A program made the translations under genes and the position numbers. A stretch of DNA of 64,000 nt from Miltoncostaea oceani (GTDB lineage: Bacteria > Actinomycetota > Thermoleophilia > Miltoncostaeales > Miltoncostaeaceae): assembly GCF_018141545.1 (NCBI RefSeq), contig NZ_CP064356.1, positions 2,803,001 to 2,867,000 on the forward strand, in the 5' to 3' direction. Below are positions 13,446 to 31,104 of the stretch, piece by piece. The notes beneath the pieces were generated by a model, which searched no databases, was not told where the DNA came from, and worked only from the letters and a program-made list of their open reading frames with translations. Within the stretch, counting starts at the first letter, position 1. The number at the start of each line of letters is the position of its first letter.

Positions 13446-13580
13446 CCATGGCGCACGTGAGCCTCGGCTCGAGGTCCAAGTGGACCATCCCGAAAGCCCA
13501 AGTGAGCCACGGCGCCGGGTCCAAGTGGACCATCTGAAAGGCCCAAGTGGACCACGACGCGAGGTCCAATGGACCATGAA
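13446..13580. repeat. GGTCCACTTGGACC-family repeat cluster upstream of rplY
   Basis: Five to six degenerate units read on the minus strand as ATGGTCCACTTGGACC, GTGGTCCACTTGGGCC, GTGGCTCACTTGGGC and similar, spaced about 20-30 bases. The left end has the cap CCATGGCGCACGTG (from 13445) and the right end GGTCCAATGGACCAT (about 13565-13578). The cluster fills the space between the MMPL gene and rplY, which otherwise holds nothing I can identify apart from the rplY leader. Confidence 0.75.
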
Positions 13581-13597
13581 CCGGAGGAGCTGCGGGG

Positions 13598-16500
13598 TCA
13601 GGCGGGCTGTGGGGCGCCCTCGTCGGGTGGGCCGGGGTCGATGGCGGCCGGCGGCGACGGGGCCGGGGCGGGGGCCGCGGGCTCGGGCTCCGGCTCCGCC
13701 ACCGCCTCGGGCTCCGGCTCGGGTTCGGGTTCCGGGTGGGCGTGGGCGGCGAGGATGGATTCGCCTTCGATGTCGATGTGCGGCACGACTCGCTCGACCG
13801 CCCGGGGCAGCCACCACGTCCTCCGTCCCATCAGCGCCAGCAGGGCCGGGGTCAGGATCAGGGCCGCGGAGGCCGCGAGGGCGACCGCGAGGGCGAGGCC
13901 GACGCCGAACTGCTTCACCGTCGGGTCGCCGTTCAGGACGAAGCTCCCGAACACGCCGATCATGATCAACGCCGCCGCCGTGATCACCCGGGCGCTCGAC
14001 GCGACACCCGACGCCACCGCCTGCCGGTCGCCCTCGCCCCCCGCGCGGTGCGTCGCGACCGAGGACAGCAGGAACACCTGGTAGTCCATCGACAGGCCGA
14101 ACAGCACCGCGAACATCATCAACGGGACGTAGCTTGCGATCGGGACCGTGTCGCGGGCGGTGTCGATCCCGAGCGGATCGATCCCCCAGCCGAACTGGAA
14201 CACCGCCGTCAGCACCCCGAACGCCGCGGCCACGCACAACAGGTTCACCAGGGCGGCCTGCACCGGCACGAGGAACGACCGGAACGCGACGAGCAGCACC
14301 AGCACGCTCAGGGCGAGCACCACCAGGATCACCACCGGCAGCCGCTCCGTGATCTCGTCCGCCAGGTCCACGTTCGCCGCCGTGCTCCCCCCCACGTGGG
14401 CCTCCAGGTCGGCCCCCGCCGTCGCCGCCGGCAGGACCGACGTCCGCAGGGTCACGACCAGGTCCGCCGTCTCCGTCGCCGCCGGGGGGGTCGTCGGGAT
14501 CGCGGTGAACACCGCCGCGTCGCCGTCGCCGTTGATCTGCGGCGGCGACGTCCTCGCGATCCCCGCCGTCCCCGTCAGGGCGTCCTGGATCCGCACGAGA
14601 CGCGGGTCCGTGCCGCGGTCGTCGCCCCCCGCCTTCGTCAACGTCGCGGTCAGCTCGTCCTTCAGCGAGAGCGCCCGCGCCTGCTGGTCCTCCGCCCGTG
14701 CCTGGAGCGCCTCCAGGTCGGCCTTCTGCGCCTGGAGGTCCGCCGCCTCGGTCTTGAGCGCCGACGCCTGCCGCTCCAGGGCGGCGGCCTCCGCGACGAG
14801 CCGTGCCCTCTCCCGGTCGAGCGCCGCCGCCTGGCGTGCCAGCGCCTCGGTGCCGGCCACGAGGGTCCGCAGCTGGCGGCGCAGGGTGCCGGGGGCCTCG
14901 GGCAGCGACGCCGCCTGCCGGCGCAACGCCGCCGCCTCCGCGCGCTGCGCCCGCTCGTCCGCCCGCGCGGCGGAGATCCGGGAGCGCAGCCGCTGGGCCT
15001 CGGCCTCCAGGCGGGTGAGCAGGGCCTCCAGCGGCGGGCGCGCGTCCTCCCCGGCGGCGGCGATCTCCTCCCGGACGGCGGCGACGCGGGCGGCGACGGC
15101 CACGAGCTGCCGCTCCGCCGCCCGGCGTCGCGCCGCCCCCGCCCGCGCCCGCGCCGCGGCGGCCTCCGCCCGCGTCACGAGGGCGCGCCCCGCCGCCCCC
15201 GCCGCCGCCACCTCGCGCTCGATCACCGCCCGCTGCGCCCGGAGCCCGTCGCGTTCGCGCGCCAGGGCCGCCGCCTGCGCCTCGAGGGCCGACCGCTCCG
15301 CGACCAGGTCGGCCTGCTGCGCCTCCAGGCCGGCCTGCTGCTCCTCCAGCGCCGCGGCCTGCGCCTGCAGCGCCGCCTGCTGCGCCTGCCCCTCCGCCTG
15401 CTCCTGCTCGAGCTCGGCCTGCAACGACCGCAGCTCGTCCTCCTGCGCCGTCACCGCGGGATCGGCGGTGGCGGGCGTGCCGAGGCTGATGCCGATCAGG
15501 AGGGGGCCGTTGAAGCCGACGCCGAACCCCGCGGCGATCAGGTCGTAGGCGTCGCGCTCCTGGCTGCCGGGAGGTGTCGCGCCGATGTCCTCCTGCCCCA
15601 GCTCGAGGGACCGCAGGGGCACGATCAGGACGGCGAGCACCGCGACGAACGCGCCGATCGCGACGAGCGGCCGCCGCGTGACCGTCCGCCCCCACGACGC
15701 CCACATGCCGGTGCCGGGCACCCGCTCGGCGGGCCGCAGGAAACGCGGCACGCGCAACGCCCCGACGCGGGTGCCGGCCAGGGCGAGCAGGGCGGGGAGC
15801 AGCGTGACGGCCGCCAGCACCGCCGTCACGACCGCGACCGCCGAGGCGTAGCCGAGCGACGTCACGAGCGGGATGCCGGCGACCGCCAGGGCGAGCAGGG
15901 CGATGACGACGGTCGTGCCGGCGAAGACGATCGCGCTGCCCGACGTCGCCACCGCCACGGCGATCGACTCCCGGACCCCCATCCCCGCCCTCAGGCCGTC
16001 GCGGTGGCGGGTGACGAGGAACAGCGCGTAGTCGATGCCGACGCCGAGCCCGATCATCGTGGCGAGCGTCGGCGCGATCACCGGCACGCCGATCACGTGC
16101 CCCATCAGGCCGATCAGGCCGAGCGCCGCGGCGAGGCCGAGGACGGCGGTGACGATCGGCATGCCCATCGCGACCACCGAGCCGAAGGCCAGCGTCAGGA
16201 TGACCATCGCCACGACGATGCCCACCACCTCGCTGCTCTCGGTCTCGGGTTTCGACAGCTCGGCGCCGATCGGCCCGCCCGCGGCCAGCTCGAGCCCCGC
16301 CCGGTCGGCGAACGGCTGCGCCGCGTCGAGGACCTCCTGCGCCTGCGCGGTCGTCAACGTGTCGGAGCCGACGGTCAGGAGGACGCCGATGAACGCCGTC
16401 CTGCCGTCCTCCGAGAGCTGGGCCTGGCCCTGCGTGCTGAACGGGTTGATCGCGCTGTCGACGTCGTCGAGCTTGCGGATCTGCGTCGCCGCGCCGTTGA

Positions 16501-16774
16501 TGGCCTTCTGGCGCGTCCCGCCGTCCTCCAGCGTCCCGTCGCCGACGTGGAAGACGAGGGGGCTGCGGCCGTTCTGCTGCGGCGGGAACCGCTCCGCGAG
16601 GACGTCCTTCGCCGCCTCGCTGTCGGTGCCCGGCAGGCTCTGGTCGTTGCTGGTGTCGGCCCCGACGGCGGAGACGAGCACGAGGACCGCCACGACGGCC
16701 GCGACCCACCCGAGCAGCACGGGCAGGGGGTGACCGGCGATCCCGTGCCCGATCCGGTGGAGGACCCGTGCCAA
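13598..16774 (-). CDS. MMPL/RND-family exporter with long coiled-coil insertion
   Basis: A 1058-residue inner-membrane transporter of the MMPL group, proton-driven exporters of lipids and other hydrophobic molecules. The order is: first TM segment (VLLGWVAAVVAVLVLVSAV), an outer loop, a bundle of TM segments around 170-400 with GLGVGIDYALFLVTRHRDG carrying the family proton-relay acids, then a second outer loop holding about 240 residues (about 445-690) of Gln/Ala/Leu/Arg heptad-like coiled coil. A second TM bundle with FGLSMDYQVFLLSSV follows, and the tail is a Pro/Glu repeat. The large helical insertion is unusual for bacterial MMPL proteins but recalls mycobacterial MmpL4/5-type hairpins. 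No accessory export genes are adjacent. It interrupts the usual prs-rplY neighbourhood. Confidence 0.92.
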   Translation of the reverse strand: MARVLHRIGHGIAGHPLPVLLGWVAAVVAVLVLVSAVGADTSNDQSLPGTDSEAAKDVLAERFPPQQNGRSPLVFHVGDGTLEDGGTRQKAINGAATQIRKLDDVDSAINPFSTQGQAQLSEDGRTAFIGVLLTVGSDTLTTAQAQEVLDAAQPFADRAGLELAAGGPIGAELSKPETESSEVVGIVVAMVILTLAFGSVVAMGMPIVTAVLGLAAALGLIGLMGHVIGVPVIAPTLATMIGLGVGIDYALFLVTRHRDGLRAGMGVRESIAVAVATSGSAIVFAGTTVVIALLALAVAGIPLVTSLGYASAVAVVTAVLAAVTLLPALLALAGTRVGALRVPRFLRPAERVPGTGMWASWGRTVTRRPLVAIGAFVAVLAVLIVPLRSLELGQEDIGATPPGSQERDAYDLIAAGFGVGFNGPLLIGISLGTPATADPAVTAQEDELRSLQAELEQEQAEGQAQQAALQAQAAALEEQQAGLEAQQADLVAERSALEAQAAALARERDGLRAQRAVIEREVAAAGAAGRALVTRAEAAAARARAGAARRRAAERQLVAVAARVAAVREEIAAAGEDARPPLEALLTRLEAEAQRLRSRISAARADERAQRAEAAALRRQAASLPEAPGTLRRQLRTLVAGTEALARQAAALDRERARLVAEAAALERQASALKTEAADLQAQKADLEALQARAEDQQARALSLKDELTATLTKAGGDDRGTDPRLVRIQDALTGTAGIARTSPPQINGDGDAAVFTAIPTTPPAATETADLVVTLRTSVLPAATAGADLEAHVGGSTAANVDLADEITERLPVVILVVLALSVLVLLVAFRSFLVPVQAALVNLLCVAAAFGVLTAVFQFGWGIDPLGIDTARDTVPIASYVPLMMFAVLFGLSMDYQVFLLSSVATHRAGGEGDRQAVASGVASSARVITAAALIMIGVFGSFVLNGDPTVKQFGVGLALAVALAASAALILTPALLALMGRRTWWLPRAVERVVPHIDIEGESILAAHAHPEPEPEPEPEAVAEPEPEPAAPAPAPSPPAAIDPGPPDEGAPQPA

Positions 16775-20861: not shown

Positions 20862-21016
20862 ACGGGGTCGGTGCGAGGGAAGCCGGTGGGAATCCGGCGC
20901 GGTCGCGCCACTGTGATCCGGGAGCGAGCCCGCACGACATCGCGTCAGCCACTGGGGGGACCTGGGAAGGCCGCGGGCCTCGCGTTCACACCGGACGAGC
21001 CAGGAGACCTGCTCCG
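20862..21016 (+). ncRNA. Cobalamin (adenosylcobalamin-type) riboswitch
   Basis: The conserved B12-element pieces appear in order: GGTGCGAGGGAAGCCGGTG (about 20870-20888), GGGAATCCGG, GCGGTCGCGCCACTGTGA (B12-box-like core with GCCACTG), GTCAGCCACTGGGG, CCTGGGAAGG and the closing GACGAGCCAGGAGACCTGC (to about 21013). Binding of cobalamin normally reduces expression downstream. Between it and the GTG start, CCTC (21032-21035 region) could pair with the GAGG Shine-Dalgarno just before the start, which suggests translational control. The exact 5' limit is approximate. Confidence 0.93.
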
Positions 21017-21054
21017 GCCCCGCACCCATACCTCCGCGAATCGAGGATCACATC

Positions 21055-22203
21055 GTGCGCTTCACCCTGCGGGCCACCCTGGCCTCCGCCTGCGCTGCCA
21101 CGCTCCTGGCGGCCCCCGTCGCCTCCGCCGTCGACACCGTCGTCCGGGTCGAGGGATCCACGACCACGCTCGTCCCGGAGAGCGCCATCCCCATCGAGGG
21201 GACCGGCACGTCGACCGTCTACGACACCAACTCCGCCCCCGTCGACGTGAGCCGCGGGTCGGCCTTCTGGCAGCTCTACCGGGCCACGTCCAGCACCGGC
21301 CTCGGGTTCGGGTTCGAGTACTTCCCCGCCTTCTCCGCCATCCTCGTGCAGAGGATCGGCCCCGACGCGAACGCCGGCGCGGTCGGCTGGCAGTACCGCG
21401 TCAACCGGGTCTCGCCGCCGGTCGGCGCGAGCGACACGACCCTCGCCGCGGGCGACCGGGTCCTCTGGTACTACGGCGCCGCCGACGGGGCCCGGGAGCT
21501 CGAGGTGACGCCGTCGGGCGACCGCATCGGCACCGGCGGGAGCTTCACGGTGTCGGTGACGAGCTACGCCGCGGACGGCTCCGCGGCGCCGGCCGCGGGC
21601 GCCCAGGTGCGGTACGGCGCGACCGCCGCGACGGCGGACGCCGCCGGGCAGGTGACGCTCGTCGCCCAGGGCACGGGCCTGCAGACGGTCCAGGCGACGC
21701 GCGCCGGCGACATCCGCAGCGCGGCGCGCCCGGTCTGCTCCTTCGGCGCCGACCCCACGGTCTGCAACCTGCCGGCGGCCCCCGCCCCGGCCACCCCCGG
21801 CGCCGGCACCTCGGCGGCGGCCGACACGGTCGCCCCGGGCAGCCGCATCACCCACCCGCGCATCGGGTCGGTCGCCCGGTCCGTCCGCGGCATCCGCGGC
21901 GTCGCCGGCCCGGACCGCTCCGACGTCGCGTCGGTGCAGGTGGCCCTCGCCCGCCGCGTCGGGACGCAGTGCCGGTTCCGCACCCGCTCCGGCGGCCTGA
22001 CGGCCCCGCGGGCCTGCGCGCGTCCCGTCTACGTGACGGCCCGCAGCGTCGGCGGCAACTGGCTCCTCCCCACGGGCAGGGGGCTGGCGCCGGGGAGCTG
22101 GCGCGTCTGGAGCCGCGCGACGGACGGCGCCGGCAACCGCGAGGCACGCGGCCTGTCGCGCATCAACACCGGGGCCTTCCGGGTCGCCCCGGCCCGCCGG
22201 TGA
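21055..22203 (+). CDS. Secreted DUF4430 (transcobalamin C-domain-like) protein
   Basis: A 382-residue exported protein: signal peptide 1-25 (cut after ASA), a DUF4430 domain about 27-145 of the type that forms the beta-domain of animal transcobalamin and intrinsic factor (GWQYRVN at 111-117 and GDRVLWYYG at 133-141 are its hallmark), an Ig-like domain about 150-240, a Pro/Ala/Thr linker, then a second beta-rich domain about 275-375 with paired Cys. It starts with GTG preceded by GAGG and lies 38 bases after the riboswitch. The GTGA overlap with the next gene couples their translation. I infer an extracellular cobalamin-binding role from the fold and riboswitch; direct ligand contacts cannot be assigned. 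No membrane anchor is visible. Confidence 0.88.
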   Translation: MRFTLRATLASACAATLLAAPVASAVDTVVRVEGSTTTLVPESAIPIEGTGTSTVYDTNSAPVDVSRGSAFWQLYRATSSTGLGFGFEYFPAFSAILVQRIGPDANAGAVGWQYRVNRVSPPVGASDTTLAAGDRVLWYYGAADGARELEVTPSGDRIGTGGSFTVSVTSYAADGSAAPAAGAQVRYGATAATADAAGQVTLVAQGTGLQTVQATRAGDIRSAARPVCSFGADPTVCNLPAAPAPATPGAGTSAAADTVAPGSRITHPRIGSVARSVRGIRGVAGPDRSDVASVQVALARRVGTQCRFRTRSGGLTAPRACARPVYVTARSVGGNWLLPTGRGLAPGSWRVWSRATDGAGNREARGLSRINTGAFRVAPARR

Positions 22204-23060
22204 GGCGCGCCGGACCGGTCGTCCTCGCCGTCGCCGCGGTCGCCGTGGCCGCCCCCCACGCGGGGGCGGCCACCGCCGACGACCGCGCGGCCGCGCGGGC
22301 GGCGAGCTGGCTCGCGGCGAACGCGACGGGCGCCCCCGGCGGTCAGCAGGCCGACGTGATCGTCGCCCTCCGGGCCCAGGGACGCACGCCGGCCGCGCTG
22401 CGGCCGCGCCTGCGCGCCCTCGGCCGGGTGGCGCCGTCGTACGCCCGCACCGCGGGCGGCGCCGCCAAGGTGGTGATGGCCTCCGTCGCCGCCGGCGGCG
22501 ATCCCCGCCGCCTCGGCGGCGTCGACTACGTCCGCCGGGTCACGACCCGCTACGCATCGGGTCGCTACGGCGCAACGGCGTACGACCAGGCGCTGTCGAT
22601 GCTGGCGCTGTCGGCGGCGTCGGTACCGGTGCCCCGCGACGCCGTCCGGGCGACCCTCGCCGCCCGCGGCGCCGGCGGGTGGGACTTCTCCCTCGCGCGG
22701 CGGAGGGACTCGGTCGACGCCACCGCGGCGGTGATCGAGGGCCTGCGGGCCGCGGGCCTGCCGGCGTCCGACCCCGGCCTGCGGGCCGCGGCCGCCTGGA
22801 TGACGGCGCAGCGGGCGCCCGACGGCGGGTACGCCACCGCCGGCGGCGGACGACCCGCCGACGCCAACTCGACGGCGGGCGCGATCCGGGCGCTCCGGGC
22901 CCTCGGGCGCACCCCGCCGGCGTCGACCCGCGCCGCGCTGCGGCGGCTGCAGGCGCCCGACGGGGGGGTCCGCGCGACCCGCGCCGTCGCCGGCAGCCGC
23001 CTGATCGCGACGACCGACGCGCTCATCGCGTTCTCGGGGCGGTACCTGCCGTTGCGGTGA
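22200..23060 (+). CDS. Secreted alpha/alpha-toroid protein, transcobalamin N-domain-like
   Basis: A 286-residue protein with an Ala/Val-rich signal peptide (1-24) and repeated helical hairpins of the terpene-cyclase/prenyltransferase alpha-alpha barrel: YGATAYDQALSMLAL (123-137), GGWDFS (159-164), DGGYAT (208-213), DANSTAGAIRALRALG (221-236). There is no DxDD or metal motif of a working cyclase. The same barrel forms the N-terminal domain of transcobalamin and intrinsic factor. With the DUF4430 gene just before it (4-bp GTGA overlap, GTG start) it completes the two-domain set as separate chains. Alternatives are a generic toroid protein of exopolymer or thioester type. The cobalamin role is inferred from context. 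Confidence 0.8.
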   Translation: MRRAGPVVLAVAAVAVAAPHAGAATADDRAAARAASWLAANATGAPGGQQADVIVALRAQGRTPAALRPRLRALGRVAPSYARTAGGAAKVVMASVAAGGDPRRLGGVDYVRRVTTRYASGRYGATAYDQALSMLALSAASVPVPRDAVRATLAARGAGGWDFSLARRRDSVDATAAVIEGLRAAGLPASDPGLRAAAAWMTAQRAPDGGYATAGGGRPADANSTAGAIRALRALGRTPPASTRAALRRLQAPDGGVRATRAVAGSRLIATTDALIAFSGRYLPLR

Positions 23061-25214: not shown

Positions 25215-26192
25215 TCACGGCTCCCCGGTGTCGGCCCGCGGGACCACGACGCGGTGCGGGCCGCCGGGGCCCCGCTCCCACCGGACGATGACCGGGGCGT
25301 GCGCCGTCTGGCGCCCGGCGTCGTCGACGGCGAACGGACCGATCAGCGTGTGGGTGCGCAACGCGCGGGCCGCGTCCCACAGGGCGTCGGGGGCGGTCGA
25401 GCCGGCACGGGCGACGGCCTCCTCCGCGACGAGGCCGGCGGCGAGGGCCTGCGCCGCCGGGTAGTCGCAGCCCGGCGGCAGGGCGACGGGCCCGGGCGTG
25501 CCGTCCCACTGGACGGGTCCGAGCCAGCCGACGACGGCGTCCCCGAGCGCCCTGCCCGCCTCGGCGACCCCGCAGGCGACGAGGGCCGCGGCGATCCCCG
25601 ACCCGGCGAGGGCGCGGCCGAGCGCGAGGTCGTCCTCGAGCCGGCCGCCCCCGACGACCCACGCGGCCCCCGCCCCGGCGGCGGCGCGGACGGCGGCGCC
25701 CGGGTCCCCGGGGTCGAGGGCGACGTCGGCGACCGGGGCGACGCCGGCGGCGGCGAACGCCGCGGCGGCGCCCTCGGCGACCTCCGCGCCGAAGCCCCCG
25801 GGCGCGCGGACGATGGCGACGCGGGGCGCGGGGCCGAGGACCGCGGGCAGACCGCGCCAGTAGGAGCGCGCCGGCCCGAGAACGTCGACGAGGCGCGCCG
25901 CCCTCCGCGGGACGGCCGCCGCCCCGTGGTTCCAGACGACCTCGGGCCGACCGTCCATCGCCTCGGCGACGGCCCGCCCGGCGCCGCTGCCGTAGGGGCC
26001 GAACAGCAGGTCCGCCGACCCGGCGAGGCCGGCGCAGAGGCGTGCGCTCCGCGCGGGGTCGCTGCCGTCGTCCTCGATGCGCAGGCGGACGCCCCGGTCG
26101 CGGGCCCAGGCGTCGAGCCCGGCGCCCGCCTGGGAGCCGAGCGGGCCGAAGCGGCCGCTCAGCGAGAGCGCGGCCGCGGCCCGCAGGGCCAT
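25215..26192 (-). CDS. Branched-chain amino-acid-type substrate-binding-like protein without signal peptide
   Basis: A 325-residue protein with the two-lobed type I periplasmic-binding fold (LIVBP style): ALSLSGRFGPLGSQAGAGLDAW at the start (first-lobe strand and GxxG helix), then LFGPYGSGAGRAVAEAM, RVAIVRAPGGFGAEVAEGA and VVGGGRLEDDLALGRAL. Homologues normally carry a lipoprotein signal; here homology begins at residue 2 and no signal or lipobox exists, so the product should be cytoplasmic. It sits 12 bases from mutY and 10 bases after the exonuclease-GIY-YIG gene, with no permease or ATPase near. It may have become a cytoplasmic sensor, or the signal was lost. The role is unknown. Confidence 0.7.
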   Translation of the reverse strand: MALRAAAALSLSGRFGPLGSQAGAGLDAWARDRGVRLRIEDDGSDPARSARLCAGLAGSADLLFGPYGSGAGRAVAEAMDGRPEVVWNHGAAAVPRRAARLVDVLGPARSYWRGLPAVLGPAPRVAIVRAPGGFGAEVAEGAAAAFAAAGVAPVADVALDPGDPGAAVRAAAGAGAAWVVGGGRLEDDLALGRALAGSGIAAALVACGVAEAGRALGDAVVGWLGPVQWDGTPGPVALPPGCDYPAAQALAAGLVAEEAVARAGSTAPDALWDAARALRTHTLIGPFAVDDAGRQTAHAPVIVRWERGPGGPHRVVVPRADTGEP

Positions 26193-30648: not shown

Positions 30649-31104
30649 TCCATGGCGCAATTGGCCGTCGCCCCGAGGTCCATTTGGACCGAGGAGCCGT
30701 CTCGGCCCGCCCGGCGGCCACTCGGCCGGGAGGTCGAGGTCCGCTTGGCCGAAGAGCCGAGGTTCACTTGGACCGGGCATCGAGGTCCACTTGGACCGAG
30801 AAGCCGACGTCCACTTGGCCAGAGCGCCGAGGTCCACTTGGACCGAGAAGCCGACGTCCACTTGGCCGGAGCGCCGAGGTCCACTTGGACCGAGGAGCCG
30901 ACGTCCACTTGGCCGGCGGGTCGAGGTCCACTTGGACCGAGGAGCCGAAGTCCAGGTGGCCGAAGAGCCGAGGTCCACTTGGTCGCGGGGTCGAGGTCCA
31001 CTTGGCCGGAGCATCGAGGTCCACTTGGCCGGCGGGTCGAGGTCCACTTGGCCGGAGCATCGAGGTCCACTTGGACGAGGAGCGATGGTCCAATTGGATC
31101 ATCG
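30649..31104. repeat. Tandem array of 23/24-bp GGTCCACTTGGACC-type repeats
   Basis: About 15 contiguous units (30735-31083), with degenerate units before and after. Units read GAGGTCCACTTGGACCGAGAAGCC (24 bp) or GACGTCCACTTGGCCGGAGC-type (23 bp); the two kinds alternate over much of the array, giving a 47-bp higher-order period. The core GGTCCA-CT-TGGACC is a near-perfect inverted repeat. The array opens with CCATGGCGCAATTGG (30649-) and closes with GGTCCAATTGGATCAT (31087-31103). It lies between the receiver-like gene and the VOC gene; the space 30324-30648 shows no gene or motif I can name. Confidence 0.92.

Follow-up and report, generated by a model that had tools for sequence, protein, structure and literature searches.

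A riboswitch-controlled DUF4430 and alpha/alpha-toroid protein pair as the probable capture part of a cobalamin ECF transporter in Miltoncostaea oceani

Overview of the locus

We analyzed a pair of overlapping genes that follow a cobalamin riboswitch in a 64-kb window (the whole stretch of DNA under study) of the Miltoncostaea oceani genome. We concluded that their products, a DUF4430 protein and an alpha/alpha-toroid protein, probably represent the extracellular substrate-capturing part of an ECF-type cobalamin transporter, split off with a B12 riboswitch of its own. What makes this reading the most likely one is a predicted ECF operon at a second locus of the same genome, together with relatives in which these genes share one operon or lie side by side. 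The computations established the riboswitch, the folds of the products, the coupling of the two genes, the recurrence of the pair as a conserved unit, the regulon of two loci, and the single operons and joint S component-toroid frames of relatives. The features of the locus are as follows.

20876..21010, + strand: cobalamin riboswitch aptamer (RF00174), located with cmscan
20903..20907, + strand: TCGCG, putative L5 loop segment and candidate kissing partner of the downstream hairpin loop, proposed from 5-base complementarity
21031..21046, + strand: putative expression-platform hairpin CCTC-(8)-GAGG, read by eye from the leader sequences
21055..22203, + strand: gene 1 (DUF4430a), GTG start, exported DUF4430 (SLBB, transcobalamin beta-domain-like) protein of 382 aa
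21121..21486, + strand: DUF4430/beta-grasp domain, gene 1 residues 23-144, from VIA-align of the model
21487..21747, + strand: Ig/PKD-like domain, gene 1 residues 145-231, matched to the PKD domain of collagenase G (Z 10.6)
21811..22200, + strand: C-terminal Ig-like extension, gene 1 about residues 253-382, from a low-confidence part of the model
22200..23060, + strand: gene 2, exported alpha/alpha-toroid protein of 286 aa, its GTG start codon contained in the GTGA overlap

The sequence-only reading of this DNA had described two exported proteins translated with a GTGA overlap and devoid of a visible membrane anchor, and the present results agree on each of these points. By hydropathy, both gene 1 and gene 2 products have a single hydrophobic segment, which is N-terminal and has an AxA-like site, and none elsewhere. 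The genes are separate open reading frames in different frames that share the 4 bases GTGA, and the pair therefore comprises two chains, unlike the one-chain layout of the transcobalamin/intrinsic factor family.

Cobalamin riboswitch and leader

The cobalamin riboswitch that had been recognized by eye upstream of the pair was recovered when the region was searched with cmscan. The RF00174 match at 20876-21010 (+) scored 74.8 bits compared to a gathering score of 31.5 (E 1.3e-16), and a tRNA was the sole further Rfam match within the 64-kb window. The GTG start codon of gene 1 at position 21055 is located 45 bases downstream of the aptamer. A small hairpin of the CCTC-(8)-GAGG type was seen by eye ahead of the start codon in most of the 16 leaders, including one (L048) with a compensated stem, CCTG/CAGG, and its 3' arm in the window is the Shine-Dalgarno sequence of gene 1. 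Short-window minimum-energy folds of the leaders did not always contain this hairpin.

The TCGCG segment of the aptamer at 20903-20907 is complementary over 5 bases to CGCGA at 21035-21039. The corresponding loop pairs in relatives are of two types, TCGCG/CGCGA and TCCCG/CG(A)GGA, the latter requiring one bulged A; two leaders (L038 and L039) did not match the pairing scheme. The aptamer loop and the hairpin loop seem to co-vary between both types across relatives, although the existence of just two types implies few independent events of co-change. Taken together, the Shine-Dalgarno hairpin and its potential pairing with the aptamer loop suggest that the riboswitch controls translation by the usual kissing-loop mechanism.

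The DUF4430 protein

The assignment of a DUF4430 domain to the first protein was confirmed by both sequence and structure. The Pfam family PF14478 (DUF4430) matched residues 110-141 with 33.5 bits (cut-off 23.8), and the beta domains of B12 carriers were the first structural matches of the model. For residues 23-144, VIA-align aligned haptocorrin (4kki) over 100 residues with Z 13.3 and an rmsd of 2.0. All of the top 14 matches were animal B12 carriers, the beta domains of haptocorrin, intrinsic factor, and transcobalamin outranking all other structures (Z 11.7-13.3), and the next match was a protein of Ruminococcus gnavus with the annotation putative metal binding. The model, which is confident for about residues 25-244, shows a beta-grasp fold in which the helix is followed by an inserted beta-hairpin (helix 70-81; strands 85-90, 95-101, 110-116, 135-142, and 148-153). 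The C-terminal extension matched Big_13 with 14.3 bits, which is below the cut-off, and had no membrane segment by hydropathy. Foldseek alone returned no match under E 0.001 for the gene 1 model, probably because of 138 low-confidence C-terminal residues. A profile search with the gene 1 alignment against PDB sequences gave no meaningful match, and the link between gene 1 and transcobalamin thus stands on Pfam and structure.

The alpha/alpha-toroid protein

The second protein had been read as an alpha/alpha toroid without cyclase motifs, and this description proved accurate. The model of gene 2 (mean pLDDT 91.6) is a six-hairpin alpha/alpha toroid of 12 helices that aligned to intrinsic factor, squalene-hopene cyclase (SHC), and prenyltransferases over 225-253 residues. 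The best structural match was SHC (Z 27.6), compared to Z 21.4 over 225 residues for human intrinsic factor, and a profile search with the gene 2 alignment against PDB sequences matched cyclases but not transcobalamin. The proposed likeness of the toroid to transcobalamin therefore holds for the fold, but a toroid fold is not in itself indicative of transcobalamin, for which the argument comes from gene context. Against NF053823 (the SCO2321 family), gene 2 scored 51.1 bits, far under the equivalog cut-off of 300.

Neither the DxDD nor the DDxxD/E motif was found in gene 2 and its 14 relatives (15 sequences), and Cys and His are very scarce in the same 15 family members, which argues against both class II cyclase and zinc prenyltransferase chemistry. 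A role of gene 2 as a cyclase was rejected on the lack of cyclase motifs in the 15 sequences. All six inner helices of the toroid carry, close to the N-terminus, a polar residue that is invariant or nearly so (D52, K90, D129, D173/T175, T225, and T271, from the alignment and the model). As placed in the model, these residues would fit a ligand pocket and are consistent with a corrinoid as the ligand.

Alternatively, the toroid might have enzymatic activity towards the captured cobamide or a cell-surface polymer, with B12 bound by the DUF4430 protein alone. Its nearest folds, those of terpene cyclases and sugar-active alpha/alpha-toroid enzymes, speak for such a role, but the motif and residue patterns of the 15 members and the occurrence of the toroid and the S component in one frame in other families (see below) make it unlikely.

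Conservation of the pair

Homologues of gene 1 and gene 2 were sought in 60 relatives, which by name are mostly Thermoleophilia and other actinobacterial metagenome bins, with a few doubtful labels (Bifidobacterium breve, Acidobacteria). Both genes are present in 26 same-family genomes, and the adjacent pair recurs as a unit, the two genes being side by side by coordinates in 20 of them. In the remaining same-family genomes, the two genes are on different contigs, and in G002 they are located at contig ends. Relatives with the genes on different contigs include G012, G021, G025, G033, and G034. A cobalamin riboswitch lies directly upstream of the gene 1 homologue at all 17 fetched relatives' loci that contain one. 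Gene 1 and gene 2 overlap by 4 nt in 7 of 11 relatives, and in the others gene 2 starts within 9 nt of the end of gene 1.

A paralogue of the gene 2 toroid with a C-terminal Ig-like part was observed at L033 8236-9702 (-), which corresponds to G000:C1:2163235-2164701; no cobalamin riboswitch was found near it.

A second cobalamin riboswitch and a predicted ECF operon

No Btu or ECF genes were detected among the scanned genes flanking the pair; the gene directly downstream encodes PhoU, which is not B12-related, and the membrane protein encoded upstream had no Pfam match. The claim that no BtuFCD or ECF transporter adjoins the pair is thus correct for the locus, but it does not extend to the genome, where a predicted ECF operon is found under a second cobalamin riboswitch about 2.66 Mb from the window locus. 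The genome contains two cobalamin riboswitches and two DUF4430 genes, one behind each riboswitch, a coincidence with a probability of ~1e-7 under random placement (4,400 genes assumed).

The second locus has the order riboswitch-DUF4430b-EcfT-EcfAA-S with overlapping genes. In Pfam/NCBIfam searches, DUF4430b matched DUF4430 with 46 bits, EcfT matched CbiQ with 63 bits, and EcfAA has two ABC_tran domains and matched cbiO with 275 bits, above its cut-off. The S component matched PF12822 weakly (19.9 bits, below the cut-off of 30.7), and its assignment leans on its position and on a homologue in L112 (PF12822, 34.7 bits). Across 61 genomes, the gene 1 homologue and the S component occurred together in 31, alone in 3 and 6, and not at all in 21 (Fisher p 3e-8, uncorrected for relatedness).

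With respect to the B12 requirement of the host, the genome encodes MetH (1712 bits), and a genome search for two biosynthetic markers found no CobQ above the cut-off and no CbiC at all; the host probably relies on B12 uptake. Three Peripla_BP_2 proteins are also encoded, so a BtuFCD-type route is possible as well.

Cobalamin-class riboswitches also govern B12-sparing genes, which would be compatible with capture of a ligand other than B12 under B12 limitation, such as a cobamide precursor, a cobalt chelate, or a methionine-saving nutrient. This reading could further draw on the possibility that some archaeal members bind other metabolites (Burroughs et al., 2007, PMC1796856). However, the DUF4430 model matched B12-carrier beta domains first, the context is that of an ECF transporter, and MetH was found without CobQ or CbiC, and we consider a different ligand the least probable of the alternatives.

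Gene order in other lineages

In other Thermoleophilia families, the genes form one operon with the order riboswitch-DUF4430a-DUF4430b-EcfT-EcfAA-S-toroid (L118 and L119), and the coordinates of the genes other than EcfT and EcfAA in three further genomes (G037, G048, and G054) match this order. The window pair thus corresponds to the first and the last genes of this operon. A single open frame spans the S component and the toroid in L118, L127 (G045), and G055, the last of these with a frame of 542 aa that contains both matches, and probably in G060. Hydropathy revealed an additional segment between S and toroid in these frames, which would place the toroid outside. At L060 (JANQPH010000014.1), the two riboswitch units stand side by side (riboswitch-D2-T-A-S-riboswitch-D1-toroid), and at L122 the unit found in the window directly precedes ECF genes (riboswitch-DUF4430-toroid-SCO2322-like-T-AA). 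Loci from other actinobacterial lineages (L111-L117) have the order DUF4430-T-AA-S-toroid, often after a riboswitch and a large protein. By hydropathy, a C-terminal membrane segment is present in the canonical toroids of L112, L118, and L120 and in one SCO2322-like protein, but not in the window toroid. At L058 3931-5858 (+), the order is riboswitch-toroid-DUF4430b without DUF4430a, and the toroid may accordingly pair with either DUF4430 protein.

The large protein between the riboswitch and DUF4430 is about 850-890 aa long (L112 550-3252, L113 933-3491, and L114 753-3359, all +).

Given the single-operon order in relatives, the extracellular genes at the two ends of an ancestral operon appear to have been joined in the window family into a soluble unit of their own under riboswitch control. 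The direction of this change was deduced from the distribution of gene orders rather than from a tree. The secreted B12-scavenging system that the sequence-only reading had proposed is retained in so far as B12 capture is the likeliest function, but the ECF genes under the second riboswitch and the joint loci of relatives make the pair better understood as part of an ECF transporter than as a scavenger that works by itself. A secreted scavenger that stands alone, or a shed 'corrinophore' with its own receptor, in either case with no tie to ECF, would account for the lack of visible anchors, the absence of a transporter beside the pair, and the riboswitch of its own. Such a system is nevertheless very unlikely in view of the single-operon and side-by-side ECF layouts, the S-toroid frames, and the co-occurrence with S.

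Proposed mechanism

In the capture part of an ECF transporter that we favor, low intracellular cobalamin would cause the riboswitch to free the Shine-Dalgarno sequence of gene 1, assuming the usual direction of the response, and both proteins would be produced through coupled translation and exported via Sec. One cobamide would then be clamped between the DUF4430 domain and the toroid in a presumed two-chain sandwich, in the manner of the two transcobalamin domains. The soluble pair might stay in the cell wall or diffuse away. The cobamide would be handed over, presumably to S, at the membrane part formed by DUF4430b, EcfT, EcfAA, and S, which would import it and feed MetH. We infer that B12 is the ligand of the pair. 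Against the ECF-capture reading stand the closer match of the toroid to SHC, the weak match of the S component, the location of the genes on different contigs in several relatives, the gene order at L058, and the possible BtuFCD-type route.

More tentatively, the two soluble proteins may join round the cobamide to form a ligand-assembled extracellular B12 carrier that has left the membrane-bound ancestral arrangement and delivers to the ECF transporter. This arrangement, which we regard as possible but doubtful, would be a bacterial counterpart of soluble transcobalamin.

Other features of the window

A tandem array at 30718-31097 consists of units of about 23/47 bp in 8-16 copies, the consensus containing CGAGGTCCACTTGG, and related units are also present at the distant positions 13450-13583. 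The window contains 17 occurrences of AAGTGGACCTCG (at most one mismatch), compared to 0.3 expected. In an MMPL-family transporter of 1058 aa encoded at 13598-16774 (-), a long coiled-coil-like insert separates the membrane halves. A Peripla_BP_6-like protein encoded at 25215-26192 (-) has an HhH-GPD glycosylase on one side and an exonuclease/GIY-YIG protein on the other, with no recognized transporter adjoining.

Comparison with known systems

Bacterial fusions of SLBB(DUF4430) and toroid domains in either order, encoded in operons with CbiO/CbiQ-like genes and predicted to scavenge B12, have been described previously (Burroughs et al., 2007, PMC1796856), and the concept, including the ECF linkage and the predicted scavenging role, is thus already known. 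The reversed DUF4430-toroid order noted earlier is present as the order of the genes, but it is no surprise, because fused proteins occur in either order (PMC1796856) and, with two separate chains, it is merely a gene order. The bacterial proteins of Burroughs et al. (2007) share with the window pair the same two domains, export, and ECF-type operons. They are fused in one chain, whereas the window pair consists of two chains encoded away from the ECF operon under their own riboswitch. In line with the suggestion that the split pair may be undescribed, we found no description of the two-chain, detached, apparently soluble form or of the S-toroid frames in the open-access literature, a search that may miss earlier work.

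The SCO2321/SCO2322 families (NF053823 and NF040672) of Streptomyces-like and other actinobacterial genomes likewise comprise separate toroid and SCO2322-family proteins in ECF neighbourhoods (L125 and L122). They differ from the window pair in gene order and in the C-terminal membrane segment carried by both the canonical toroid and the SCO2322-like partner. No cobalamin riboswitch was found at two such loci with full NF053823 scores (L120 and L121), and no related work on SCO2321/SCO2322 was found in the open-access literature. ECF-CbrT of Lactobacillus delbrueckii (PMC5997447) is likewise an ECF-type B12 uptake system; the accessible part of that report mentions no extracellular binder, unlike the window pair. 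According to the accessible parts of the corresponding reports, the BtuG and DUF4465 binders of Bacteroides (PMC6143338, PMC13398666) also capture B12 at the cell surface and feed a transporter, but the resemblance is one of analogy only, as they have differently named domains and belong to an outer-membrane TonB system.

ECF transporters have no classical soluble binding proteins, and little is known of how they catch scarce vitamin B12 on the outside. Judging from the operons and the joint S-toroid frames, toroid and DUF4430 proteins seem to serve Actinobacteriota as a dedicated capture module. Both members of the split pair are apparently soluble and could be purified and assayed without membrane-protein work.

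Animal transcobalamin, intrinsic factor, and haptocorrin resemble the pair in combining a toroid (Z 21.4) with a DUF4430/SLBB beta domain (Z 11.7-13.3). Unlike these carriers, the window pair consists of two chains with the DUF4430 gene first, has extra Ig-like domains, and is controlled by a riboswitch, and its binding of B12 is a prediction. Animal transcobalamin has been proposed to derive from a bacterial toroid-DUF4430 protein (PMC1796856), and the window pair bears on this bacterial origin.
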